This document shows, in pieces, positions 1,497-52,731 of a stretch of 64,000 nucleotides of DNA. A program made the position numbers and the translations under genes. The notes beneath the pieces were generated by a model that was not told the DNA's origin, searched no databases, and was given only the letters and a program-made list of their open reading frames with translations. Where the stretch lies: the IMG/VR virus record IMGVR_UViG_3300024950_000032, positions 1-64,000 of that record; one strand, given 5' to 3'. Within the stretch, counting starts at the first letter, position 1. Every line of letters starts with the position of its first letter. Origin of the DNA: a virus.

Positions 1497-2354
1497 TCAG
1501 GCCTCGACTTTCTTCGGCTCGGGAGGGAGGTCCGCGATCAGCTTCTCGATGAACTCGCGGGTGTGGGGGTGCAGCTTGGAGTAGCCGGCGTCTTCCTTCA
1601 CGTTCATCAAGCCCTCGTACAGCTTGGGTGCGGCCTTGCGCGTGGCTTGGGTGAAGTCGATGGGCATGTCCTTGGGCGTGACCTTGGTCTTGCCCGTCGC
1701 CGTGTTCTTGTCCAGCAGACCCTGGAGGATGGCCGCCGCCTTGTCGCCGTGCTTGCGTACCGCAGCGATGGCCGTGGCCGCCGCCACGCTGCCGGCGCGC
1801 ACCAGGTCACGGACTGCCTTGGGGCAGCTCTGCAGGAACAGCAGGTTGCCGACATAGGCCTCGGTGACGCCCAGCTTGGAGGCGATCTTGGTGTCATCCC
1901 AGCCGAAGCCCTGCAGACGCTTGCACACGGTGCCCAGCTCATAGGCGGTCAGCTGCTTGCCGGAGTTCGACGTGGCCAGCGCGACGGTCAAGTCCTCCAT
2001 CGAGGTGCCGCGCACCGTGGTCACAACCGGCACGTGGGTGATGTCGGCCCCCAACTCACGTGCGATGGGGATGGCCTTGTGGCGGTTGTGGCCGTCCGTC
2101 ACGACGATGCGGCTGACACCGTCGATCGTGGCGACATAGCCGGCCATGGGCTTGCTGCGGTCATAGCCGTTGGCGACCATCATGCTGGCGATGCCCTGGA
2201 TGTGGTCACGCAGCTCCTGAGTGTCGTCGCGGACGTTGAAGCCGGGGAGGATGTAAAGGTCCTCGTAAGGCACCTGCCACAGGTCGGCAGACTTCAGGCC
2301 GGCAGTGGCTTCCTTGACGTTACCGGGGGTGAGATCGATGTTGTGCTTGCTCAA
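1497..2354 (-). CDS. ParB/Srx-like domain protein
   Basis: A ParB N-terminal-type motif (DGHNRHKA) lies about 87 residues from the chosen start, followed by a KorB/ParB-like helix-turn-helix (DDTKIASKLGVTEAYVGNLL). This suggests sequence-specific DNA binding, with possible CTPase or nuclease activity as in ParB/Srx families. No ATG is available. I chose TTG 2354 (285 aa) because it directly follows the stop of the SbcC-like gene and has GGAG 6 nt upstream; a TTG at 2387 would extend it by 11 residues. Phage ParB-like proteins can be regulators, nucleases or partition proteins, and the sequence does not decide which. Confidence 0.8.
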   Translation of the reverse strand: MSKHNIDLTPGNVKEATAGLKSADLWQVPYEDLYILPGFNVRDDTQELRDHIQGIASMMVANGYDRSKPMAGYVATIDGVSRIVVTDGHNRHKAIPIARELGADITHVPVVTTVRGTSMEDLTVALATSNSGKQLTAYELGTVCKRLQGFGWDDTKIASKLGVTEAYVGNLLFLQSCPKAVRDLVRAGSVAAATAIAAVRKHGDKAAAILQGLLDKNTATGKTKVTPKDMPIDFTQATRKAAPKLYEGLMNVKEDAGYSKLHPHTREFIEKLIADLPPEPKKVEA

Positions 2355-2355
2355 T

Positions 2356-4479
2356 TTATGCTCCAAGTTGGATGACGTTGTCGGCAACGGACTCGCTGAG
2401 TTCGTCGTGCGAGGCCAGTAGCACCTGCTCGGTGCCGGTGGCGGCCAGGAAACCCAGCAGGTTGCTGGTACGGGAGACGTCGCAGCCAGAGGCCGGTTCG
2501 TCGAGGGTGAGGAAACTGGTGTGCGGGATGAAGGTCTTCACCAGGGCAACGCGCACTGCGACAGCCAGGACGTCGAGCGTCGACCCGCTCAGCGACGTGA
2601 TTGCATAGCCGTTCACCTTGAACCCGCTGGCGTCCTTGGTCACGACGCTGTGCTCACCTCGCATCGAGGTGAAGAAGGTGCTCACCGCAGACAGCACGGT
2701 GCCCCAGAGGTGGTCAGTGATGGCGGGCTTGAGCCGGCGCAACTTGGCGACCAAGCCGTTGTTGAAGGCCAACGTCTTCATGTCGTCCTGGTACTCGGTG
2801 ATGCGATCACGCAACGTCTGCAGGCGGTTGTTGTATTCCTGCAGCGTGCGTTCCAGGTTCACGCGGCGCTGGATCAGGTCTGTCAGTTGGCTGCGGGTCT
2901 GCAGCAGATCGCGGGAGTGGGTGGCATAGGCGTTGTAGGCCGCGTCAGCCTCGGCGCGCAACGGGGCGACGTCCACCTCGACCAGGGCTCCAAACTCGGT
3001 TTCCAGCACCGCCACGGCTGCGCGCTGGTCCCCGGCCGTGGCACGGAACGCCTGGGCGCGGCCCAGGGCCTCACCGGCTGCCCTATCGGCCGCCTCCAGT
3101 TCGGCCAGCCGGGTGCGGTTGGCGTTGGATGAGCGCTCAGGGACCTCGGCCTTCCAGGTCGGGCGTGACGGGTAGACCGAGGTGTCGAGGTTCAGGTAGT
3201 CGAGCCCGACCTTCATCACCTTGGCATCGACCGACGCGGCCACAGCTGACACGGCGCGCATGTCGGCGAGTTCAGCCTGGTTGGCCTTCAGTGCAGCCGC
3301 CAGAGGGGTCTGACCAGCGACCACCTCGGCCAGCTTCACGTTGATACCGGCGTTGTGCTCAGCCACATGCTCATCGCTCTGGGCGGCGTGACCACAGGTA
3401 GGACACTTGCCGCTGGTGATGAGCTGAGCGCGCAGGGTGGCGGCGCTGCCTTCCAGCTTGGCCACGTCAGCCTGGATGGATTCGCGGACCTTCGTCAGCC
3501 GCTCCACTTCAGCGTCGAACCCCGACTTCGGACCTTCCCAGAAAACTCCGGGGTAGGTCAGGGCGGTGAACAGGCTGTAGGCCTCGAACGCCTTGGCCCG
3601 GCCCACCTCGTCGCCTGCTGCAGCACGCAGAGCGTCCAGCTCAGCAGGGTCAGGCTTGGCGCCGGCTTCCTTCTCAGCGCTCTCGATGCGGCCCACAGTG
3701 GAAGCCAGTGCCGTGCGGGCGGCGTCGAGCTTGCGGCTCACGTTCAGTCGCAGGGCGTTGGCCGCGTCGGCGCTTTCGACCAAGGTGTTCTTCTCGCCCA
3801 CCACGACCATGGACGATTCCACAGCGAGTTCGAGATCCTTGATCTGAGTCTCGGCTGCCAGCACCCCAGCGTCGATGCTGGGGATCTCGCTGACGTCGGG
3901 CTTGCCTGCCTCCAGCGTCACCAGCTCGGCCTGAGCCGTCTCGATCTTGCTGCGCAGCGGAGCATCAGCGCCCAAGGTCAGCTCGTTGTTGGCTGTCTCA
4001 AGCAGGCGGTCCACGGTGTCGAAGTCGGCCAGCTTGCTCATCAGGGCGCTGACGGCAGCGGGGCCTTCGTCCAGGGCACCGCGCAAGTCGTTCTGGCCGG
4101 CAAGCATCAGCACGGCTGCCGTCTTGGCGTCAGCGCCCAGCAGCTCGGTGGCGAAGTTGGAGACCTCGACCTGGCCGGTAACCAGCTTGTCGCCGTAGCT
4201 GCACTCAGCGCCAGATTTGGAACGAGAGAAGGTGAAGTCGACACCCTTGATTTGGATGATCAGCTTGGAGCTGACGTCCTGCTCACGCTTGCCCCAGGTA
4301 GCCGTCTCGGCCAGGCTATTGCGCAGGGCCTTGCTACCGTAGAGGGCGTACAGAACACCCTCGATGATGGTGCTCTTGCCGGCTTCGTTGGAACCACGCA
4401 GAGCGTTCAGGCCAGGGGTGAGGTTGAGTACCAGGTCCTCGTGCTTGCGGAAGCACTTGAGGGTGAGCTGCTTGATCAT
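2356..4479 (-). CDS. SbcC/Rad50-like (T4 gp46-type) SMC ATPase
   Basis: ATPase subunit of a Mre11-Rad50-type nuclease that resects DNA ends in recombination-dependent replication. Visible features of the 707-aa protein: Walker A GSNEAGKST (29-37), a long coiled coil broken by a zinc hook CPTC (359-362), the ABC signature SLSGS (from 629), Walker B LTLDEP (near 657-662) and an H-loop SHD (690-692). It is shorter than bacterial SbcC and close to phage gp46. ATG 4479 overlaps the stop of the small membrane gene, and the nuclease partner lies just upstream. Confidence 0.94.
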   Translation of the reverse strand: MIKQLTLKCFRKHEDLVLNLTPGLNALRGSNEAGKSTIIEGVLYALYGSKALRNSLAETATWGKREQDVSSKLIIQIKGVDFTFSRSKSGAECSYGDKLVTGQVEVSNFATELLGADAKTAAVLMLAGQNDLRGALDEGPAAVSALMSKLADFDTVDRLLETANNELTLGADAPLRSKIETAQAELVTLEAGKPDVSEIPSIDAGVLAAETQIKDLELAVESSMVVVGEKNTLVESADAANALRLNVSRKLDAARTALASTVGRIESAEKEAGAKPDPAELDALRAAAGDEVGRAKAFEAYSLFTALTYPGVFWEGPKSGFDAEVERLTKVRESIQADVAKLEGSAATLRAQLITSGKCPTCGHAAQSDEHVAEHNAGINVKLAEVVAGQTPLAAALKANQAELADMRAVSAVAASVDAKVMKVGLDYLNLDTSVYPSRPTWKAEVPERSSNANRTRLAELEAADRAAGEALGRAQAFRATAGDQRAAVAVLETEFGALVEVDVAPLRAEADAAYNAYATHSRDLLQTRSQLTDLIQRRVNLERTLQEYNNRLQTLRDRITEYQDDMKTLAFNNGLVAKLRRLKPAITDHLWGTVLSAVSTFFTSMRGEHSVVTKDASGFKVNGYAITSLSGSTLDVLAVAVRVALVKTFIPHTSFLTLDEPASGCDVSRTSNLLGFLAATGTEQVLLASHDELSESVADNVIQLGA

Positions 4480-14646: not shown

Positions 14647-17559
14647 CTACTGACGGAAGGCAGCCACGCCCTCACGCTGCAGCCGGCCGGTATCGAACCT
14701 CATGATCCGATCCCCCAGGTTGTCGGCCCGAAGTGCTGAGTTCGAGCAGACCCGATCAACCACGCAACCGTAGTTGGTCAAGGCCACAATGAACGCTCCC
14801 TGAGTGTCGAAGAGCGGTGTCATGTTGTGCGTCACGCACTTGCGGCGGTACTGGTCATAGGCGCGCTGGATGCGCAGCTCAACCCAACCGTCGCCCATGA
14901 CGTAATCGCGGTCAACCACCAGTTCATACGGCGTGTCGCGGTCGTGCGTCAGCGACGCCACCTCGGCCATGACCTTGGAGATTTCGGCCATACCCTGCAG
15001 GCTCTCGACCAGGTCGTCCTGCGTGCTGTGCGATGCCTTGTAGTTCAGCAGCCTGTCGATGTCGCCGTTGAAGGCATCACCGAACGTGCGCTGCATGACC
15101 CTCTTCAGCGTGCGCAGGGCGTGGATGATGACCGAGCGGTTGAACACGAGCCGGGCGGCCGGCAACTTGGTGTTGGGGGGCACCCGTGCCAGCACTTCCT
15201 CCTGGATCGTCTCGACCTCGTTGCGCATCATCTCCAGGTCGATACCGAAGCCACACTCGACCAGCTCGCGGCCCAAGGCACTGAGCACCTCAGGGCACTT
15301 GCGCAATCGGTGGTATGCCTCGGCCCGCCTGGGGTCTTCCGTGATGCGGTCAGGTGACAAGCCGACCGTCACGCAGCGCTCGTAGATCGCGGTCTCCATC
15401 TCGATGGCTTCCGCCATGAACGCCACAGGTGCTGTGGCCTCGTGACGGACGATCGAGAGCTGCGTGTCAGCACCCTTGTTGATGGTGCCGCCCTCGCGGA
15501 TCACGCCCCCGGTGTAGCTGGCCTTGATGATGTCCTTGAACTTCTCCAGCTTGCCCTTGAACGTGCGCAGCTCACGGGGCTTGACCTCGTCGATGAGGAA
15601 CGGCGCCGAGGTCGAGGTGGATGCTGCGATCTCCAGCGCGAAGTAGCTCATCGACGTGGCCGACTGCATGGGTGGCTTGTTCATGAACCAGTGCAGCGCG
15701 GTCAGGGCCTCCACCGTCTTGGTCTTGCCAGAGCCTGCCGTGCCGTACACCTGCAAAACCGGGAACTGCTTGAACAGGTACAGGTACAGGCTGCGGTAGT
15801 GGGCAGCGACCATCCACCCCAGGATGTCAGCCACATGGTCAGGGCGATTGAACCGGAACAGATCACGCAGCGGCGTCTCCATCGACTCATCAAGTTTGGG
15901 GGCCTTGTGGATGTCGATGTTGTAGGCGCTGAGTGCCGTCTCAGGCCGATAGCACAGGTTGAATTTCGCATCGGTCTCGGAGAGGGACGACATGAACTCG
16001 GTTTTGGTCAGGTAGACCTTCACCGGCTGACGCTCGTCGGGACACTCCGGGTGATCGATGACGAAGAACCCTTCACGCGGGTAGGTGTAGACCTTCCCGC
16101 CTCGTGCTGCTTTTTCTTGCATGATGTCCAGTAGCGACATGGCGTCGCTGTCTGTTCCTTGGAAGGTCAGTTGGCGGTTGGCGAAGAACTCCTTGAGCTT
16201 GCCGGCCGAGGTGAAGGCTTGGGCCGTGATCGTGGCCCGCCCCAGCTTGCGCCCCCGGGACACGATGTCGAACTCGTAGCCCCTGAACTCGTCGGTGATC
16301 ACGTTGTGGAACGCGATCACGTTGCGCAGGGTGGCCCGGCAGATCGACTCGGTGGTGTCGCCGTTGACGCGGAACATGCCCTCGGCGTTCATGAAGAAGC
16401 CACGCCGCATGCGGGAGTGCGGGTCGACCATGGCCACGACGGGCTCGGCCGGCGCGTCGCCGTCTTCCACGTCCGTCTGGCTGACCGTCTCGGGCGGCGG
16501 CTCGTCGCCGTGGTCCACCCGGTCCAACACCCCCAGGTCGGGTGTGGCGACGCCCTTGGCCACGAGCCCGGCCATCGGCCCGACGTCGAACTCGTACAGC
16601 GTGTTCTCGTCCATGTAGCGCCACATCCGAGCAAGCTCCTCGCGGCGCTTGCGTTCGGTGTTGTAGCGCTTGCCATCGCTGACATGGTTGTCGATCAACC
16701 CCTGGCACGAAGTCAGGAACAGGTCGAGCGTCATGCCGACGCTGGTGGCGTAGATGGCGAGCTGCATCGAGAGCGCCTGGAAGCCGGCGCCCTCGCGGAC
16801 ATTCTCGCCACGCATCAGCATCTCGATGGTGGGCGGGTGCTGCTTGGCCTTCTTCCACGGGTCCAGGATCTCGTTGGCCTTGTCCATGCGGCGCTTCTTG
16901 CCTCGCATGTGGACCAGCATCTTCTCCCTGGAGCGCTCGAAGAGCATCGCCAGCTTCGGGTTGCACGACGGAGGTGTCGGCTCTTCGACCAGGCGTGGCT
17001 CCGACACCAGCTCCTGGTACAGCTCAGGAGTGATGTCGAGGGCGTCGCTCAGGGGCAGGCTGACCTTGTAGCGACCGTTCTCACGCTGCACATTGGGGGT
17101 GCGCCACATGCGGCCACGCTTGCCGGTGTAGACCCGCATGTCCATCGAATCCACGATGAGGCTTTGCGCCACCTCGCGGTAGATGTACGGGAGCCACGGC
17201 GTGCCGTTGGAGGGCACCTTGGGCATGAAGCACTCGACCGGGATCTCGATGTGGAACCCCTTGCTGCCAGAGGCGTACAGCCTGGCTTGGGACACATCGA
17301 AGTCAAGCTCTACCGTCAGCTTGCCGAGAAAGGTCTTGAACTGCTCGCAAGCAAACTCAAGGTCGCCTTCAGCGTCGAAGTCGAAGTACAGCGGGCCGGA
17401 GTAGCGAACCTTGGACCAGTCGTTGTCGTCAGGCACGCCTGACAGGTCCAGCACCGAGACGTAGCGCGGCTTGACGCTGTTGACGACGCGGTCGCGGTCA
17501 GGCGACATCGCCATCAGCCAGGTGTCTTCACCGCCCTCACGCTGGTAGAAGAAGTACAT
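14647..17559 (-). CDS. primase-helicase fusion (AEP/PrimPol-type primase plus P-loop ATPase)
   Basis: 970 aa. The N-terminus has the archaeo-eukaryotic primase signature YFDFD (Asp60, Asp62) and SGSKGFH (97-103). The C-terminal half has Walker A GTAGSGKT (606-613) and Walker B FLIDE (654-658), as in DUF927/virulence-associated-E-like helicases. It would prime and unwind at the fork in place of DnaG/DnaB-type proteins. The middle (about 250-560) is unassigned and may hold zinc-binding and linker segments. ATG 17559 has GGAG 6 nt upstream. Confidence 0.85.
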   Translation of the reverse strand: MYFFYQREGGEDTWLMAMSPDRDRVVNSVKPRYVSVLDLSGVPDDNDWSKVRYSGPLYFDFDAEGDLEFACEQFKTFLGKLTVELDFDVSQARLYASGSKGFHIEIPVECFMPKVPSNGTPWLPYIYREVAQSLIVDSMDMRVYTGKRGRMWRTPNVQRENGRYKVSLPLSDALDITPELYQELVSEPRLVEEPTPPSCNPKLAMLFERSREKMLVHMRGKKRRMDKANEILDPWKKAKQHPPTIEMLMRGENVREGAGFQALSMQLAIYATSVGMTLDLFLTSCQGLIDNHVSDGKRYNTERKRREELARMWRYMDENTLYEFDVGPMAGLVAKGVATPDLGVLDRVDHGDEPPPETVSQTDVEDGDAPAEPVVAMVDPHSRMRRGFFMNAEGMFRVNGDTTESICRATLRNVIAFHNVITDEFRGYEFDIVSRGRKLGRATITAQAFTSAGKLKEFFANRQLTFQGTDSDAMSLLDIMQEKAARGGKVYTYPREGFFVIDHPECPDERQPVKVYLTKTEFMSSLSETDAKFNLCYRPETALSAYNIDIHKAPKLDESMETPLRDLFRFNRPDHVADILGWMVAAHYRSLYLYLFKQFPVLQVYGTAGSGKTKTVEALTALHWFMNKPPMQSATSMSYFALEIAASTSTSAPFLIDEVKPRELRTFKGKLEKFKDIIKASYTGGVIREGGTINKGADTQLSIVRHEATAPVAFMAEAIEMETAIYERCVTVGLSPDRITEDPRRAEAYHRLRKCPEVLSALGRELVECGFGIDLEMMRNEVETIQEEVLARVPPNTKLPAARLVFNRSVIIHALRTLKRVMQRTFGDAFNGDIDRLLNYKASHSTQDDLVESLQGMAEISKVMAEVASLTHDRDTPYELVVDRDYVMGDGWVELRIQRAYDQYRRKCVTHNMTPLFDTQGAFIVALTNYGCVVDRVCSNSALRADNLGDRIMRFDTGRLQREGVAAFRQ

Positions 17560-22898: not shown

Positions 22899-24122
22899 TC
22901 AGCCCTTCACGCACAGCACCTGCTTCAGGGTGTGGACAATCTCGACCAGGTCGGACTGAGCTGCCATCACCGCGTCGATGTCCTTGTAGGCGGCCGGCGT
23001 CTCGTCGATCACCTCAGCGTCCTTGCGACACTCGACGCCGGCCGTAGCAAGCATGTGGTCGTCAATGGTGAACTGGCGCTTGGCCTCAGCGCGGGACATC
23101 TTGCGGCCCGCGCCGTGGGAGCAGCTGCAGAACGACTCGCGGTTGCCCTTGCCACGCACGATGAACGACTTGGCGCCCATCGACCCGGGGATGATGCCAA
23201 GCTTGCCTTCGCTGGCGTCCACCGCGCCCTTGCGGGTCAACAGCACGTCCTCACCGAAGTGGCGCTCACGCGTCACGTAGTTGTGGTGGCAGTTGATTGC
23301 GGAAGCGTCCACCGTGAAATAGGGGAGACCACACACGGCCAACGCGGCGAGCACGTCCTCCATCATGGCGCGGCGGTTGAGTGCGGCGTAGTTCTGAGCC
23401 CACTGCACGGCCTCGATGTAATCATCGAAGAGAGTGGAGCCCTCGGGGATGTAGGCCAGGTCAGCATCCGGCAGGTTGATGAACCAACGCTGCATGTCCT
23501 TCTTGGCCAGGTTGATGAACAGCGTGCCAATGGCGTTGCCGATGCCACGCGAGCCCGAGTGCAGCATCACCCACACCCTCTGGTCCTCGTCGAGACACAG
23601 TTCGATGAAGTGGTTGCCCGTGCCGAGCGTGCCGAAGTGGCGGTCGGCACGCTCGGCAGCCTTCGACAGGGCCGGGTACTTCTGGGTGATGCGGGCGAGC
23701 CCTGGTGCGGCCAGGTCGGTGAACATGTTGATGCCGGTGGATCGAATCGAGTGGTACGCACCACGGTCGTTGTTGCCGCCGTTGTCGGTGCGGCCGTGCG
23801 GGATGCGGGCCTCGATCTCGGTGCGCAGCGCGGCCAGGTTGTCGGGCAGCTGGGCCGCCGTCAGCGTGGTGCGCACGGCCATCATGCCGCAGCCGATGTC
23901 CACGCCCACGGCGGCGGGAATCACCGCGCCCTTGGTGGCAATCACACTGCCGACCGTAGCGCCCATGCCCCAGTGGACATCGGGCATGGCGGCCACGTGC
24001 TTGTGGATGAACGGCATGCCGGCCAGGTTCAACAATTGGTCACGGGCGGCGTCCTCGACCTGGACACCACGAGTCCACGCCTTGATCGGCAGGCGGGCGC
24101 CGTTGATAACTTCGTAGTTCAC
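22899..24122 (-). CDS. rtcB: RtcB-type RNA ligase
   Basis: GTP- and Mn-dependent ligase joining 2',3'-cyclic phosphate (or 3'-phosphate) and 5'-OH RNA ends, used in tRNA repair and splicing. The 407-aa protein has VDIGCGM (Asp75, Cys78), HNYVTRE and SCSHGAGRKMSR (333-344), with His336 in the position of the guanylated histidine of E. coli RtcB. The start is GTG 24122 with AAGGAG upstream, overlapping the next gene (GTGA). No archease partner is seen. Confidence 0.95.
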   Translation of the reverse strand: MNYEVINGARLPIKAWTRGVQVEDAARDQLLNLAGMPFIHKHVAAMPDVHWGMGATVGSVIATKGAVIPAAVGVDIGCGMMAVRTTLTAAQLPDNLAALRTEIEARIPHGRTDNGGNNDRGAYHSIRSTGINMFTDLAAPGLARITQKYPALSKAAERADRHFGTLGTGNHFIELCLDEDQRVWVMLHSGSRGIGNAIGTLFINLAKKDMQRWFINLPDADLAYIPEGSTLFDDYIEAVQWAQNYAALNRRAMMEDVLAALAVCGLPYFTVDASAINCHHNYVTRERHFGEDVLLTRKGAVDASEGKLGIIPGSMGAKSFIVRGKGNRESFCSCSHGAGRKMSRAEAKRQFTIDDHMLATAGVECRKDAEVIDETPAAYKDIDAVMAAQSDLVEIVHTLKQVLCVKG

Positions 24123-28437: not shown

Positions 28438-28623
28438 CTAGGAATGTTGACGATGTTCCTGCTGGGTCCAGCCACGATCGCGGCCGGGGCAGGTGTCGAG
28501 CAGCTTGTCCTGCTCACGAACCTTGAGCAGCCTGGCGATACGCAGATAGCGCGGCTTGACCTGGCGGCGGCTACGCTCGGAGCACTTGATGTGGTTGTGG
28601 TGCGTGTGATTGGTGTAGGTCAT
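28438..28623 (-). CDS. small basic phage protein (61 aa)
   Basis: Contains RYLRIARLLKVREQDKLLD followed by CPGRDRGWTQQEHRQ, a conserved-looking C-terminal block seen in small phage proteins. Coupled to the RHH gene by ATGA. Function unknown. Confidence 0.58.
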   Translation of the reverse strand: MTYTNHTHHNHIKCSERSRRQVKPRYLRIARLLKVREQDKLLDTCPGRDRGWTQQEHRQHS

Positions 28624-29243
28624 GACTTGTGTGAGGCAAATTGCCGTTTGAACTGGTTGACCCTGACGAGCTGGTGCGACAGGGGAAGGACGTCATCCAA
28701 CTGCTCTTGTGCAACAAAGGCATCTCCTGTGAGTGAGGGATCAGCGAGTTCTTCAAGGGCTTGAGCCACGTCGATCCCAAGGGCGTGGCAAAGCGAGTTC
28801 AATTCAAAGTGCGGCTTCTGCGGGTTGATCCGTCGATCGACCACGATGCTGGCAAGCCAGGCTGTTGCGCTCGGCGCCAGGCTGGCCTCCACTGCAGGCT
28901 CTGGCTCAGAGGTAGGCGAGGGTGCCGGCGCCGGCGCCGGGGCTGCCACAGGGGCCGCCACGGGCTCGGGCGGGACCTCCGGTGCAACCACCGGCGCCGG
29001 AGCTGGGGCCGGGGCCGGGGCTGCTACCGGAGCCGGGGCCAGCTCCGGTAGCGGCTTCGCCATCATGGAGGCCGCCAGCTCCGCGCCGTACAGCTCGACG
29101 AAGTTCTTCACCTTCTCTGCGATGTAACGCTCCAACGCGATCGTCACCACAGCGGAATAGCTGAGCCCGGAGGTTTGGGCTACCTGTTCCAGCTTCTCAG
29201 CCAGAGGCGCAGGCAGTCGGATGTTGATTTGTTCTTTGGTCAT
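28620..29243 (-). CDS. ribbon-helix-helix protein with Pro/Ala-rich linker
   Basis: 207 aa. The N-terminus MTKEQINIRLPAPLAEKLEQ ... SYSAVVTIALERYI is an RHH DNA-binding fold (about 1-45). A Pro/Ala-rich linker follows (about 70-135), then a C-terminal domain (HFELNSLCHALGIDVAQALE). Likely a transcription regulator with an effector or oligomerisation domain. ATG 29243 has GGAG 6 nt upstream and a promoter directly before it, so autoregulation is plausible. Confidence 0.75.
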   Translation of the reverse strand: MTKEQINIRLPAPLAEKLEQVAQTSGLSYSAVVTIALERYIAEKVKNFVELYGAELAASMMAKPLPELAPAPVAAPAPAPAPAPVVAPEVPPEPVAAPVAAPAPAPAPSPTSEPEPAVEASLAPSATAWLASIVVDRRINPQKPHFELNSLCHALGIDVAQALEELADPSLTGDAFVAQEQLDDVLPLSHQLVRVNQFKRQFASHKS

Positions 29244-29264
29244 AGGGGCTCCGGGTAGGGCGGG

Positions 29265-29293
29265 ACTGTATTCCCACACTTCCAAAGTGTCAA
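29265..29293 (-). promoter_or_regulatory. sigma70-like promoter for the RHH gene
   Basis: Minus strand: perfect -35 TTGACA (29293-29288), 17-nt spacer, -10 TACAGT (29270-29265, 4/6). The upstream gene's TGA stop is inside the -35 box. Confidence 0.6.
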
Positions 29294-30399
29294 AAAATGT
29301 CGGGGCAGGCGACGTCGAGGAATTCGGCCAGACCACCCTCGTAGTCGTCAACGAACGCAAAACCATTGGCCACGGCCTCGGGGCTGAATGCCGTTCTGCG
29401 CATGTTGGCAACGGCGATGTCGAACTCGTCGCCACTGAGCTTGCGAGAGATGTGCTCCTTGATCAGGAGATCCATCAGGGCCTTGGGTTCGCCTTGAGAG
29501 GCCAGCCAGGCGGCGTCCTCGATCTCGTGATCAAGTCGGGAAACCGGGCGGGGCCAGGCATCCATCAACTGGTCGATCTCAGTGTCGTCCGGGTCACTCC
29601 AGGGGTCACGGTTGTCCCAGCCACTGAGCAGACTCAGAGTGCTCCTGGAGATCACGGGTTCAGGCTTGCGTTCGGTGGGTAGCTTGTCCCACTCGATCTT
29701 GAGGGCGACGTCCATCAAGTTGAGCAGGTAGGTGAGGTCCTGCTTTTCCTGCTTGCCGTGCTGGGCCGTGTAGCCCACGCTGATGTTGGTGCACTCCGGG
29801 ATGATGTGGGTGAACTCGGCCGTGTCGGTGTAGACGCCGCCATCGCAGGGCATGTAGAGCAGACCCAGGTCGTTGAACGCCGTGCTCAGGGCCTCAGCGA
29901 ACGCCTCCGAGGCGCACCGGCCGCCCGCCTGGTGGGTGATGACATCGGTATAGCCGGCGCGGTCAAAGGCAATGGCGCGGTCGAACTCGGCAAGCAGTTC
30001 CCTGTGCTCGTCGGCCAGGTGGTTGGCACCGATACCGCCGCATTCTTCACCTCGACTGAAGATGTAGTAACCGGGGATGCCGGCGTCCATCATGTGGCCG
30101 AGGATGGCGATGCCGGCCGCGTCGTCAGCGCCCAAGGTGTCACCGTCGCCCATCACGAAGTCACCCTCGAACTTGATGGCGTTGGCCTCGCCCTTGCCGC
30201 TCGTGATGGTGTCGGTGTGGGCGATGAAGAGCGAACGGTGGCTCGGATCGGTGCGGCGGTTGAAGTGGAGGTTGCCCGCCGCGTCGATCATCGACGCGCC
30301 GAAGCGACCCGCCAGGAAGGCCACGAACTTGGCCTCACCCATGGAGCCGTGACCACGCTTGGTGCCCAGGGCACGCATCAGAACTTCAGTATTGGTCAT
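29290..30399 (-). CDS. M20/M28-family zinc metallopeptidase
   Basis: 369 aa. The five expected two-zinc ligands appear in order: HTD (His61, Asp63), GADD (Asp92 region), GEE (Glu118-Glu119), FDRAGY (Asp146) and YTAQH (His214). This is an intact aminopeptidase/carboxypeptidase-type site within about 230 residues; the remaining C-terminus is helical and phage-specific. ATG 30399 has GGAG 7 nt upstream. Substrate unknown; peptides or amidated small molecules are typical. Confidence 0.82.
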   Translation of the reverse strand: MTNTEVLMRALGTKRGHGSMGEAKFVAFLAGRFGASMIDAAGNLHFNRRTDPSHRSLFIAHTDTITSGKGEANAIKFEGDFVMGDGDTLGADDAAGIAILGHMMDAGIPGYYIFSRGEECGGIGANHLADEHRELLAEFDRAIAFDRAGYTDVITHQAGGRCASEAFAEALSTAFNDLGLLYMPCDGGVYTDTAEFTHIIPECTNISVGYTAQHGKQEKQDLTYLLNLMDVALKIEWDKLPTERKPEPVISRSTLSLLSGWDNRDPWSDPDDTEIDQLMDAWPRPVSRLDHEIEDAAWLASQGEPKALMDLLIKEHISRKLSGDEFDIAVANMRRTAFSPEAVANGFAFVDDYEGGLAEFLDVACPDIF

Positions 30400-44520: not shown

Positions 44521-44613
44521 GGTGAGTTGTCCACAGGTTGGTTGCGTGAAAAAGTCACGAATCGACCGCAAAACAGACGAAAGTCCTTTGGTGACAAGCA
44601 CTTAAGGCATGTC

Positions 44614-44622
44614 TGTGGATAA
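44614..44622 (-). promoter_or_regulatory. perfect DnaA box
   Basis: TTATCCACA on the minus strand (TGTGGATAA as read on plus). Confidence 0.6.
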
Positions 44623-44723
44623 GTCTGTAGGCGGCGAAATAGGGGGGGTGGGGAAACGGCGTGAAGACTGCAAGAGGTCAAAACGCGAGGACGGTTTCAG
44701 CTGGGGAGGTAGCTGATGGGGAC

Positions 44724-44807
44724 GAAAAATCGCCTGTGGGTCCGAATAGGGGCCTTGGCGCCGAAATCGACGCGAAAGGGCCTAAACGGGCCTACAGGCG
44801 ATTTTTC
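44724..44807. repeat. 14-bp perfect inverted repeat with 56-nt spacer
   Basis: GAAAAATCGCCTGT (44724-44737) and ACAGGCGATTTTTC (44794-44807) are exact reverse complements. Possible protein-binding half-sites or a large hairpin inside the putative origin. Confidence 0.7.
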
Positions 44808-45107
44808 TGGAGAGGACGTAGGGGAGTAAAGGCTCGAAAAAATTCCTAAAAAATTTCTCAACACGAAGAGCCTAAATCCCTAAAAAAAATTACTTACCTT
44901 TTGTTGATTTTTAAAAAGAGAGGTAAGTGCTTGATAGGATTTGAGAAAAGGGGCGGAAAAGTTGTTGTTGGGATGCCTGGGGTTACTACTGAGGCAAATT
45001 AACAACGCTTTTCGCGTAGGTCCAGGAAATTTTTCAGAGATACCAAAGTGCTTGCAAAGTGCTTGCTATTGGTTTCTGAGGTCGGAAGACTGGCCCTAGT
45101 CTGGGAG

Positions 45108-45116
45108 TTATCCACA
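45108..45116 (+). promoter_or_regulatory. perfect DnaA box
   Basis: TTATCCACA on the plus strand, followed by GGCTAG; the one-mismatch box at 44527 has a similar flank (GGTTGG). Confidence 0.6.
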
Positions 45117-45271
45117 GGCTAGGGGCAGTCCTCGGTGAGGAGGACTTGGGAATGGCTCACAGATGCCGGCTGAATGCGTCGAAAGCGCTGCTGGTCGTTT
45201 GAGCTGAGGGTATAGGCACAGTTTGGGCCGTAATGCTCAACCAGGCTGGATCTGCGAGACGGCGCAAGACT

Positions 45272-45312
45272 CCACATATTCAGGGCGCTGTCATGCGGTG
45301 CTGAATATGTGG
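45272..45312. repeat. 12-bp perfect inverted repeat (hairpin)
   Basis: CCACATATTCAG (45272-45283) and CTGAATATGTGG (45301-45312) with a 17-nt loop. A second, 7-bp repeat AATAGTC/GACTATT follows at 45323-45348. Both are in the non-coding control region. Confidence 0.7.
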
Positions 45313-45600
45313 CTTGGCCTCGAATAGTCGGTTATCCCCGTGACTATTGAACGGGCTTTGCCAACTCCCCGGCGAATTGCCCCGGGCAGCTTTTGAGTCG
45401 GCAAATATTCGTGTCTGTTGGGCGATGGGCACAGTTAGGGCTTTGATGCCTTCCCGTGCAATGGGCGCACCTTGGGCATTTGATGCCGCAAGGGTCTAGG
45501 CGCTTGGCTGAGGCCTATGTCTAGGGCGCTGCCCTGGGGCTGGCCCTGGGCGCTGCCATCGTCGCAACAGTGAAAAAGAAGCATTGAACATCACAAGCGG

Positions 45601-45736
45601 GCAGCGAGCGGGGCAAGCTGGCAGCGAGTAACGGAGCGCACAGAGCGCGCTCGCCTTGCCTGATTTTCAGGCGGCCGGGCTATTGCAGTCCCTTACCCCA
45701 GGTACTGACAGCGAGCTTGCGCAAGCTGACAGCGAG
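45601..45736 (+). repeat. AGCGAG iteron-like repeats around CAAGCT
   Basis: (G/A)CAGCGAG occurs at 45601-45608, 45621-45628, 45708-45715 and 45729-45736: two pairs spaced 20-21 bp apart, each with CAAGCT between members. The second pair also frames the palindrome AGCTTGCGCAAGCT (45714-45727). Looks like iterons for a DNA-binding protein. Confidence 0.55.
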
Positions 45737-45760
45737 GGAGGAGGCGCTTTACCCGGTCTA

Positions 45761-45817
45761 GGGCATCGCCTAAGCCACGCGGGGAGGCTTAGGCGATGCC
45801 CCGGACGAATCCGGGGC
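45761..45817. other. two overlapping, mutually exclusive hairpins
   Basis: Hairpin A: a perfect 16-bp stem, 45761-45776 with 45786-45801 (GGGCATCGCCTAAGCC and its complement, 9-nt loop). Hairpin B: GCCCCGGA 45798-45805 with TCCGGGGC 45810-45817. They share 45798-45801. Both lie just after the Ala-rich gene on the minus strand, so they may form its transcript end; no U-tract is present. Confidence 0.6.
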
Positions 45818-45823
45818 ACTAGG

Positions 45824-46756
45824 TCAGGCAGCCAGCAGGGCGCCGCCCTTCACTGCATCGGCGATGCGCTCAGCGTTTGCACGGTGCACGTCGCTCGCCG
45901 CGTCGCGCTGGTGCATGACTTCTTGCGCGCTGATTGCCTGATTTTCAGAAGTGACAATGGCGGCGCGCTTCTTGCCCTTGTTGCCCTTCACTGCGACAGC
46001 CGCAGCGGCGATGCCTTCGGCAGCCTTGAGGGCGGCGGCAGCGGCGGCAGCCTGGGCGGCGCCCTCGGCAGCGACGCGGGCAGCCTCAGCGGCTGCGCGC
46101 TCAGTGGCTGCAGCCTCAGCGGCAGCCACCACGGGGAGGGCGGCGCGCACCAGGGAGAGCAAGAAGGGGGAAGCGCCCAGGGCATCGGCAAGGGTTTGCA
46201 CGCGGTCATCAGTAGCGCCGGTCAAGCTCTCCAGGGCAGCGCCCAGGGTGGCCGCAGCGGCAGCGACGCTAGACAGAGGCAGGGGGGAGCCCTTGCCATC
46301 GGCCACGGGCGCGGCGCTGCCGTCAATTTCCTGGGGGGCAGCGGCAGGGGTGGCATTCTTGGCCGCTTCCTTATCCGCCTCGCGCTTTGCTGCCTTCTTG
46401 TCACGCTCAGCGCTTACCAGTTCGGCAAGGCAAGGGAGGGCGAAGGCCTTCACCTCAGCTTGAGCGGCGCCAAGCCATGCGGCGCCCTTCTTTGCGCGGG
46501 CAAATTCCCCGGGCTTGCCCGGCAGAATCACGAGGTCAGCGAGGGCGCCGCCCAGGGTAGCGACGCACAAGCGGGCCGCGTCGCTGCCCTTGATGCTTTC
46601 GAGTGCGGCGAGCAGCTTATTGAGGGGGGTAAGCTGGCCATTGCTCAGGGCATGCGCTGCGGCATGGCGCATGAGGGGGGTAATGCTGGCGGGGGTGTTG
46701 GCGATGCGAGCGACGCCAGCAGTAAAGGCAGCGGCAGCGAGAAAGACCTTAGACAT
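45824..46756 (-). CDS. Ala-rich protein of unknown function (310 aa)
   Basis: Start ATG 46756 (MSKVFLAAAAFTAGVARIAN) with AAAGGG 6 nt upstream. A structured-looking N-terminal half (SITPLMRHAAAHALSNGQL, ADLVILPGKPGEFARAKKGA), a charged linker (ERDKKAAKREADKEAAK), then a long Ala-rich helical segment and a basic GNKGKKRAA patch. No family recognised. It is the only gene in the control region. Its DNA shares the GC-rich palindromes (AGGGCGCCGCCCT at 45837-45849) of the array upstream, so gene and array probably have a common origin. Confidence 0.62.
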   Translation of the reverse strand: MSKVFLAAAAFTAGVARIANTPASITPLMRHAAAHALSNGQLTPLNKLLAALESIKGSDAARLCVATLGGALADLVILPGKPGEFARAKKGAAWLGAAQAEVKAFALPCLAELVSAERDKKAAKREADKEAAKNATPAAAPQEIDGSAAPVADGKGSPLPLSSVAAAAATLGAALESLTGATDDRVQTLADALGASPFLLSLVRAALPVVAAAEAAATERAAAEAARVAAEGAAQAAAAAAALKAAEGIAAAAVAVKGNKGKKRAAIVTSENQAISAQEVMHQRDAASDVHRANAERIADAVKGGALLAA

Positions 46757-46888
46757 ATCGAACCCTTTCAATAGGGCGTGTTTGCCCCTATCGCTACAGG
46801 GGCCTATCCCCCGGCGATGTAGTGACTTTAGGCGGTATATCCCCCGACGGGATAGAGGGTAAACCCTTAGTTGTGCAAATTCTTTTGC
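46757..46888. other. 132-nt region of short inverted repeats upstream of the Ala-rich gene
   Basis: Small inverted repeats include GCCCCT/AGGGGC, TATCCC/GGGATA and AGGGT/ACCCT. A weak minus-strand -35 (TTGCAC) with CTATCC 17 nt on is present. No ORF is supported. Confidence 0.4.
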
Positions 46889-47169
46889 GGGGCAGGGCGG
46901 CGCCCTGGTGGCTGGGGATGGCATGCCCCAGGGGCAGGGCGCCGCCCTGGTGGCTGGGGATGGCATGCCCCAGGGCGCCGCCCTATCTAGTGTCACCCAG
47001 ACCGAGGGAGGGCAGGCCGAGGGGCAGGGCGGCGCCCTGGTGGCTGAGGGTGGCATGCCCAAGGGCGGCGCCCTTGTATATGTAGGTGACGACATCGGGC
47101 AGGCTGGCAAGGATAGGGCCAAAGGGCAGGGCGATGCCCTAGCCGTTTTGCGGGGCTGGGCGGCGCCCT
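46889..47169. repeat. array of GC-rich palindromes within 42-bp imperfect tandem repeats
   Basis: Seven copies of AGGGCG-n-CGCCCT or close variants start at 46894, 46936, 46972, 47026, 47062, 47128 and 47157. Two complete 42-bp units (46889-46930, 46931-46972) contain this palindrome plus TGGCATGCC, with a third, diverged unit from 47021. Plus-strand reading gives only repetitive peptides. Next to terminase genes and the putative origin, it could be a packaging, replication or regulatory site. Confidence 0.7.
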
Positions 47170-47269
47170 AGGCGAAAGCATGTAGGGTGGGCAGGCCTAG
47201 CCGCTTGACTACGGGGGTCTGAGAGCGCGGCGACAAGGGCGCGGCAAACCACCTCACCTCGAAAAAAAT

Positions 47270-47325: not shown

Positions 47326-47700
47326 GTGTCAAACAAGTCCCCGACGCAACGAGTTCGGCTCGATCCACGCATCAACAGCTTCCTGAGTCAGTTGGCGGTC
47401 AGCAAGTCGGCTGCAATCTCCGCAGCCATTGACGAAGCAGCAGAAGACCCTCAAGTGCTCGTAGAAGCCTTCAGGCGTAGTTTCGATACCGACATCGTTA
47501 CAGACGTCCAAACGACTGTTGTTATGCAGTCGTCCACAAAAGCTAAACTAGATGCTCTCACTGCTATGACGAAGTTAGGTAGAGAGCACACACTTCACCT
47601 CTGCGCCGAGGCATACATGCACAGGCGCATCACACAAGAGAACCAACATGAGCCTACTGAACGTGTACTCGATCTACAAGGAAGGTCTGATCAGCCATGA
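47326..47700 (+). CDS. tandem ribbon-helix-helix-like protein (124 aa)
   Basis: Two Arc/MetJ-like modules are visible: RVRLDPRINSFLSQLAVSKS (about 9-28) and TTVVMQSSTKAKLDALTAMT (about 63-82), each a beta-strand followed by helices. A protein with two RHH units could bind DNA as a pseudo-dimer. It starts at GTG 47326 with AGGA 6 nt upstream and opens the rightward operon, so it may be a late-gene regulator or contribute to terminase site recognition. Overlaps the next gene by 53 nt. Confidence 0.6.
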   Translation: MSNKSPTQRVRLDPRINSFLSQLAVSKSAAISAAIDEAAEDPQVLVEAFRRSFDTDIVTDVQTTVVMQSSTKAKLDALTAMTKLGREHTLHLCAEAYMHRRITQENQHEPTERVLDLQGRSDQP

Positions 47701-48262
47701 CGAGGCTGCAGCCCAATTGAACCTGACCCCGGAGAGCCTCAAGATCCGTATGGAACGCTGGGGCGACCGTATGCCAACTCTCCTCGCGGCACTTGACGCA
47801 ATTGCAAATGACGAAGCCACGCGCCCGGAAGTGGCAAGTGTGCTTGGCATTTCGTTACGAGAAGTAAATCATCTGATGGAGTCCTGGGGCATCAAGCGTC
47901 CCATCAAGCCGTACCTCATCAGCCGCACTGCCAGCAAGGTCAAGTGGGAACTACGCAAGAAGCACGCTATCGACTACATCGCGGGCGCTGACCTAGAGAC
48001 CTGTGCTCTAAACGCTCAGTGCAGCGATCGTCAGATCCGTCGTTGGGTATCGGAGCTGCTCGACAAGCATTTCGGGATGATGTTCAAAGACTTACGTGAA
48101 TTGACCATCCAACGTCGTCGCCGCCTGGCTGACGAAATCGAAGAAGCTGAGGGCCTTGAGCTTGCAGCTCAGAACGTCCTTAATTCAATTACCTCCGGTG
48201 AGAAGACTCTCGCCGAGGAAGCCCTAGAACGCCTAAAGGCAAAGCATCGGAATAAGAAATGA
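47648..48262 (+). CDS. HTH DNA-binding protein near terminase (204 aa)
   Basis: Shows repeated HTH-like units (SHDEAAAQLNLTPESLKIRM, PEVASVLGISLREVNHLM, CALNAQCSDRQIRRWVSEL) and a charged C-terminal coiled coil. The position before the small terminase suggests a packaging-related recognition protein or regulator. It could be an alternative small terminase subunit. Confidence 0.65.
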   Translation: MSLLNVYSIYKEGLISHDEAAAQLNLTPESLKIRMERWGDRMPTLLAALDAIANDEATRPEVASVLGISLREVNHLMESWGIKRPIKPYLISRTASKVKWELRKKHAIDYIAGADLETCALNAQCSDRQIRRWVSELLDKHFGMMFKDLRELTIQRRRRLADEIEEAEGLELAAQNVLNSITSGEKTLAEEALERLKAKHRNKK

Positions 48263-52260: not shown

Positions 52261-52731
52261 ATGTCGGCTATGAGCGACACCCTGGAGAACAAGTTCATCG
52301 ACTGGTTCTTCCGCGCCCAAGCACTTGGCATTGCCGGCGCGTCCGCTGCCGCAGGCACCGGCCCCGCCAACCTGTACGTCGCGCTGCTGACCGCTGCGCC
52401 GAGCGACACGGGTGGCGGCACCGAAGTGACGGGTGGCGCGTATGCCCGCGTGGCTGTGGCTTCGAGCTTGGCCAACTGGGCCGGCACGCAGGCGGCTGCC
52501 TCGGTGATTGCCTCGACCGGCACGAGCGGCACCACCAGCAACAACAACGCCATCACCTTCCCGTCGCCCACCTCGAACTGGGGCACGATCGTGGCGTTCG
52601 GTTTGTACGACGCCAGTACGGCCGGCAACCTGTTGTTCTACGGCACCCTGACCACCAGTAAGACCGTGAACAACGGCGACGCGGCCCCCAGCTTCGCTGC
52701 TGCCGCGCTGAGCATCCAAATCGACAACTGA
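52261..52731 (+). CDS. phage virion structural protein, Gp80-like (156 aa)
   Basis: Contains ANLYVALLTAAPSDTGGGTE and GGAYARVAVASSLANW, a pattern of small phage structural proteins (Gp80-like) thought to be head- or tail-associated. The C-terminus is beta-rich (WGTIVAFGLYDASTAGNLLF). ATG 52261 has GAGAGG 7 nt upstream. Confidence 0.65.
   Translation: MSAMSDTLENKFIDWFFRAQALGIAGASAAAGTGPANLYVALLTAAPSDTGGGTEVTGGAYARVAVASSLANWAGTQAAASVIASTGTSGTTSNNNAITFPSPTSNWGTIVAFGLYDASTAGNLLFYGTLTTSKTVNNGDAAPSFAAAALSIQIDN

Follow-up and report, generated by a model that had tools for sequence, protein, structure and literature searches.

A noncoding block with DnaA boxes, an inverted repeat pair and a neighbouring covarying hairpin as a candidate replication origin of an uncultured tailed phage and its relatives

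The window analysed here, a stretch of 64,000 nucleotides, makes up most of a 66,714-bp virus record (IMG/VR record IMGVR_UViG_3300024950_000032) and derives from an uncultured tailed phage, of whose genome it represents a fragment. The left end of this fragment falls within a thymidylate synthase gene, and its leftward genes encode a polymerase, a primase, a helicase-like protein, a ligase, an exonuclease and proteins of nucleotide metabolism. The rightward genes, which start at 47.3 kb, encode small proteins, the terminase TerL, a portal, a head protease and the major head protein. The divide between the leftward replication genes and the rightward packaging and head arm is formed by an origin-like block 3.6-4.2 kb upstream of TerL. 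The origin-like stretch without genes measures 1.2 kb: no genes were called at 44,521-45,823, and 44,623-45,655 is the only part of the window longer than 350 bp that is free of open reading frames (ORFs), at an ORF threshold of at least 75 aa. To its right lies a gene for an alanine-rich protein (Table 1), and alanine-rich leftward genes are visible at the equivalent place in the sequences L039 and L047.

The nearest annotated phages share only about 27-32% TerL identity with the window; they are Vibrio phages of the phiVP505 and SHOU24 kind, Pseudomonas UAntarctica, PMBT3 and Lana, and Caulobacter Seuss. Closer relatives, with TerL identities of 64-69%, are all uncultured: G004 (87 kb), G006 (82 kb) and G010 (79 kb). 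The contig ends of G004 (L099 end, L023 start) overlap by an exact 127 nt, so that this genome, whose record is classed as linear, looks circularly mapped and is probably complete. Nucleotide searches of the block region against annotated phages gave no match, gene anchors left of the block recovered no additional closely related locus, and divergence among four relatives was too high for alignment-based folding of the whole region.

Table 1. Positions of the features discussed, in window coordinates
Feature	Position	Strand	Remarks
Primase (phrog_16345)	14647-17559	-	E 6.5e-48; AEP-like motifs FDFD and SGSKGFHI plus Walker A, by inspection
DnaA box, one mismatch (TTGTCCACA)	44527-44535	+	immediately upstream of a possible leftward ORF (start 44520)
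AAGTGCTTG, left arm of conserved inverted pair (TAAGTGCTTGT)	44595-44603	-	motif count and permutations
Perfect DnaA box TTATCCACA	44614-44622	-	motif count, window
Large inverted repeat	44724-44807		41-nt arms, 78% complementary; outer 14 bp perfect; A5/T5 flanks
AT-rich core, candidate DNA unwinding element	44837-44916		24% GC; three AAAAAATTxCT 11-mers
AAGTGCTTG, right arm of conserved inverted pair (TAAGTGCTTGA)	44925-44933	+	motif count and permutations
Two AAGTGCTTG repeats, 11-bp spacing	45046-45065	+	starts 45046 and 45057; motif count
Perfect DnaA box TTATCCACA	45108-45116	+	motif count, window
Noncoding block with excess secondary structure	45120-45750		possible structured RNA or hairpin array
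Hairpin, two helices and conserved loop	45360-45402	-	covaries in three phages
Strong hairpin	45756-45806		between noncoding block and leftward Ala-rich gene
Ala-rich protein gene	45824-46756	-	310 aa, no family

An earlier note on this DNA had proposed that the block is a replication origin with host-type DnaA boxes and iterons. The three boxes that it listed, two of them perfect, lie exactly where it placed them. The perfect copies are the only two in the whole window, and two such copies arose by chance in 0.005% of Markov shuffles of 44522-45755. Boxes with at most one mismatch are not over-represented in the window as a whole (7 against 4.9 expected); the DnaA-box signal is two perfect boxes inside one ORF-free block. 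Similarity among the three boxes extends past the 9-mer itself (GAGTTATCCACAGG, GAGTTGTCCACAGG, GACTTATCCACAG), with a 13-14-nt consensus of GA(G/C)TT(A/G)TCCACAG. For the family at large, perfect boxes were counted in the 7 kb upstream of TerL at 63 loci and compared with composition-matched permutations of the box. The count, 11 copies in 7 of the 63 loci, is an enrichment of about 13-fold over the permuted boxes (mean 0.81 copies, 0.79 loci) and ranks the real box first of 1,680 permutations by copies; when ranked by loci, three permutations, the real box included, reach 7. The test was prompted by the window; with the window left out, 9 copies in 6 loci remain. Downstream of TerL, 3 perfect boxes against 1.4 expected represent no clear enrichment.

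The placement of the boxes is less constant than their enrichment. In the 87 kb of G004 there are just two perfect boxes, both beside the equivalent region, one apparently in a leftward coding frame and the other beside the AT-rich core. There is a single TTATTCACA within the AT-rich core of G006, one box immediately upstream of the leftward operon of L047, and in L039 a set of three within 41 bp that lies beyond the Ala-rich gene, on its right. The perfect box is absent in G010, UAntarctica and most other relatives in the family. Because the boxes vary in position and are missing in most relatives, host DnaA is probably an accessory at the block, where the boxes are probably functional but optional. 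What stands of the proposal that an origin here recruits host DnaA is the family-wide enrichment of perfect boxes at this place; against it, the boxes are not clustered as in oriC, their position is not fixed between relatives, and most relatives have none.

The four AAGTGCTTG 9-mers that the note described, one on the minus and three on the plus strand, were likewise found (Table 1), and they represent four of the five exact copies in the 64 kb, the fifth being at 52318. Any 9-mer reaches at least four copies in about 0.7% of shuffles of 44522-45755. Two of the four form an inverted pair, and in G006 and G010 the corresponding TAAGTGCTTGA pair flanks the AT-rich core, with left and right arms at -4616 and -4452 from TerL in the former and arms at -4092 and -3935 in the latter. 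G004 has a weaker, degenerate pair (L099 3103 and 3261). The arms are 330 bp apart in the window versus about 160 bp in the relatives. When all 5,040 permutations of the 9-mer were compared, only the real one gave, in each of the window, G006 and G010, two inverted copies within 400 bp of each other; every other permutation did so in at most one genome. The pair is confined to this clade, with an exact pair in 2 of 80 other family loci. Repeats and AT-rich core are kept in place in the nearest relatives, a comparison that the note had itself suggested; its stated ground for abandoning the idea, that the elements are not conserved, therefore does not apply to the 9-mers. As iterons they are not classical, since the window has no tandem 17-22 bp units. 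Direct repeats with 20-bp spacing do occur in G010 to the right of the core (GGTGACAGTGTGGGCCAAAA), with related repeats to its left, and G004 has two 20-bp-spaced repeats with a similar core (TGGGGCCAAA). Those of G010 (L025 5802-5860 and 6133-6216) are nearer to true iterons than the repeats of the window.

The AT-rich core has the lowest GC content of any 80-bp interval in the 64 kb, the next lowest being 37.5%. The two inverted repeats previously reported here are both present: an 8-bp repeat read from the sequence (ACTTACCT/AGGTAAGT, 44892-44899/44920-44927), associated with the core, and a 14-bp repeat (GAAAAATCGCCTGT 44724-44737, ACAGGCGATTTTTC 44794-44807) that forms the ends of 41-nt arms and makes the whole a candidate cruciform or two-way terminator. 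Of 33 family loci examined, 17 have their strongest AT dip at a distance of 3.2-6.2 kb upstream of TerL, namely the window (dip at -3.9 kb), its three nearest relatives and 13 others; in the remaining loci, mostly more distant, the dip lies elsewhere. In bacteria, the minimum of GC skew is expected at the origin and the maximum marks the terminus. Analysis of GC skew, one of the checks suggested in the note, places a switch near the block, with the cumulative curve peaking at 47-48 kb, but this is a maximum rather than a minimum and coincides with the flip in gene orientation, fourfold sites of the coding strands being C-rich on both sides. Being opposite to the origin rule and confounded with gene orientation, by codon position too, GC skew is uninformative here.

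The DNA to the right of the boxes and repeats folds strongly. In six genomes, the fold z of the minus strand is -4.8 (window), -4.9, -5.8, -2.8, -6.6 and -4.5, as compared to +0.2 to -3.2 for coding controls. Within this region, one hairpin is conserved in structure. A model built from the window and G004 alone and searched against 740 kb finds the G006 copy at E 3.3e-6, a test that is independent in sequence and not blind, as that copy had first been seen by eye. All 14 pairs of the hairpin form in the window, G004 and G006 wherever both bases are present, and 9 of the 14 change on both sides among the three genomes, an outcome reached in 0 of 500 shuffles. The model gave no convincing match in G010 or more distant relatives. 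In G004, the hairpin scores 14.6 bits on the opposite strand versus 68.6 bits, and the window copy contains a G-U pair on the minus strand only, where the plus strand reads A-C; the far lower opposite-strand score and the minus-only pair point to the minus strand as the one on which the hairpin is probably read, whether in RNA or in single-stranded DNA. Rfam returned nothing at the gathering score for the folding block or the hairpin, only weak sub-threshold matches. A pattern search for the hairpin loop in viral and genome contigs refound G004; its other matches looked like chance, that in L107 lying in a TatB-like gene and that in L103 in an ORF. No second convincing shared hairpin loop was found. 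The region at 45120-45806 may be a new structured RNA or else a priming site of the hairpin type.

That the phage has its own primase-helicase, as the note had assumed, agrees with the presence of a primase gene with AEP-like motifs and a P-loop, although Pfam and NCBIfam gave no match to its product and PDB no convincing one; judging from these motifs, the protein is likely a replicative primase-helicase. No DnaB_C helicase was found in ten genomes. The neighbouring proteins that were tested included no member of a Rep family, an initiator gene was not recognised, and no dnaA gene was recognised near the block. Small DNA-binding proteins are encoded in the window at 28620-29435, 47326-47700 and 47648-48262.

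Several known systems resemble parts of this arrangement. Iteron origins combine iterons, DnaA boxes and an unwinding element, host DnaA can assist the plasmid initiator, and one to a few boxes can suffice as helpers (PMC4980987). Like origins of the P1, F and RK2 type (PMC4980987), the window gathers within a single noncoding block an AT-rich unwinding region, initiator-like repeats and few DnaA boxes (two perfect and one near-match). Unlike them, it has sites of 9-11 bp, arranged as an inverted pair and one 11-bp-spaced tandem in place of two or more tandem 17-22 bp iterons, no Rep gene was recognised, and the phage encodes its own primase, polymerase and ligase. With bacterial oriC the block shares TTATCCACA boxes and an AT-rich unwinding element with short A/T-rich repeats; however, its only two perfect boxes are 494 bp apart, and where an oriC-type cluster was defined as at least three boxes within 100 bp (as in PMC4948915), the window has two, one of them mismatched, within 96 bp and the third 490 bp away. 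In the lambda origin region, too, DnaA sites of the host lie next to a phage origin and to early transcription (PMC3985674), but lambda O/P replication genes were not seen among the annotated proteins and the candidate origin of the window lies between genes. The putative origin of pRN1 is a stem-loop that is used by an AEP primase-helicase and conserved in structure rather than sequence, a pairing reported also in some bacteriophages (PMC4234260). The window likewise combines a primase that has AEP-like motifs and a P-loop with a hairpin whose stem varies while its structure is kept. It differs in that the hairpin is about 43 nt long, not 100, and lies 28 kb from the primase gene, not directly downstream of a replication gene; DnaA boxes are an addition. 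GOLLD and ROOL (PMC12286853) are similar as long, strongly folding noncoding blocks in phages, whereas the window block has no match to the family covariance models in Rfam.

The best reading of the block is an origin with phage-specific initiator sites and auxiliary host DnaA, and we put at an even chance that 44.52-45.12 kb is the main replication origin of the phage. From the elements of the block, their conservation and position, the covarying hairpin and the primase gene, we infer protein binding, melting and initiation at this place. A phage protein would bind the inverted TAAGTGCTTGA pair on either side of the AT-rich core, which it would open; host DnaA at two or three boxes would help to bend or open it, and the phage's own primase-helicase would load after opening. 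The adjoining hairpin block at 45.12-45.81 kb may be a landing site for the primase-helicase or a structured RNA. Given the AEP-like motifs and P-loop of the primase, a hairpin-using origin as in pRN1 is possible, and the reports of such pairing in bacteriophages lend plausibility to the hairpin next to the core as a landing site. It is an improbable further step that these parts make up a composite origin type, so far undescribed, in large environmental phages, in which host DnaA and a phage initiator open a core flanked by inverted sites and the primase-helicase uses an adjacent conserved-hairpin array or a large structured RNA from it. An origin with DnaA boxes in a phage is a known idea (P1, lambda), and we found no description in the literature of origins in this phage family. 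Three points are new here: the boxes are enriched across a family of phages that supply their own replication enzymes, the repeats are arranged as an inverted pair, and the neighbouring hairpin covaries.

A phage that encodes its own replication enzymes is often taken to be independent of host initiators. That perfect host DnaA boxes are enriched at one place in this family suggests that some such phages still respond to DnaA; replication of the phage, or its early transcription, would in that case be tied to the cell cycle of the host. The block thus provides a concrete origin candidate for the family, with a new conserved hairpin beside it.

The main rival to an origin treats the block as the control region of the early leftward operon, with AAGTGCTTG as operators of a phage regulator, the AT-rich part as promoter and DnaA acting on transcription. 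We regard it as rather unlikely. The block does lie directly upstream of that operon, AAG..CTT is partly symmetric and operator-like, boxes sit just upstream of leftward genes in both the window and L047, L039 has operator-like dispersed palindromes, and DnaA regulates transcription at ori-lambda (PMC3985674). However, a sigma-70 scan found no promoter in the block, its sole candidate (47270) being no more than chance, and AAGTGCTTG is not scattered over other intergenic sites. As promoter and origin can be one place in lambda, early control is compatible with an origin. It is conceivable, though we lean against it, that the main item is instead a structured RNA, about 0.6 kb in length and more likely from the minus strand (45.12-45.75 kb). 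It could be a noncoding RNA in its own right or form the leader of the early operon, and the boxes and repeats to its left would then control it. Minus-strand folding beyond that of coding controls (z about -3 to -6.6), a two-phage model that finds a third phage, complete pairing with covariation, a G-U pair kept on one strand only and the precedent of GOLLD and ROOL for large structured RNAs in phages (PMC12286853) argue for this, whereas covariation concerns one hairpin in three genomes, and neither a promoter nor an Rfam match was found.

The position beside the terminase gene also fits a site for packaging or for a genome end, such as pac, cos or a terminal repeat, and the terminal repeat of the distant relative Seuss lies 3.8-5.5 kb upstream of TerL. 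This is very unlikely, as the G004 map is unbroken through the region and its end overlap lies elsewhere; DnaA boxes and an AT-rich core would also be unexpected there. Least probable of all is a chance gathering of short motifs in the one AT-rich intergenic gap of a GC-rich phage. Nine-mers are short, and near-matches to the box are as frequent as expected, but the box pair, the family-wide enrichment and the conserved inverted pair all exceed matched controls, and the enrichment and permutation results already contradict it.

Other features of these genomes bear on lifestyle and gene content. G004, G006, G010 and G030 carry tyrosine recombinase genes, and the clade may be temperate; the distant relative PMBT3 has been called virulent. 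The window encodes a ParB-like protein (phrog_1033) at 1497-2387 (-). A phage-plasmid was considered and rejected, no ParA-type ATPase (PF13614) being found in ten genomes, though four have the recombinase. The leftward operon includes a gene for an RtcB-type RNA ligase at 22899-24122 (-). Between 850 and 7962, L039 has 15 copies of the palindrome CTAGACGTCTAG across its leftward arm and noncoding block and none in the late genes present, resembling dispersed repressor sites (stoperators). Upstream of the Ala-rich gene of the window, at 46885-47170, several copies of another palindrome, CAGGGCGGCGCCCTG, are set in longer repeats, and several related contigs end near the corresponding place.
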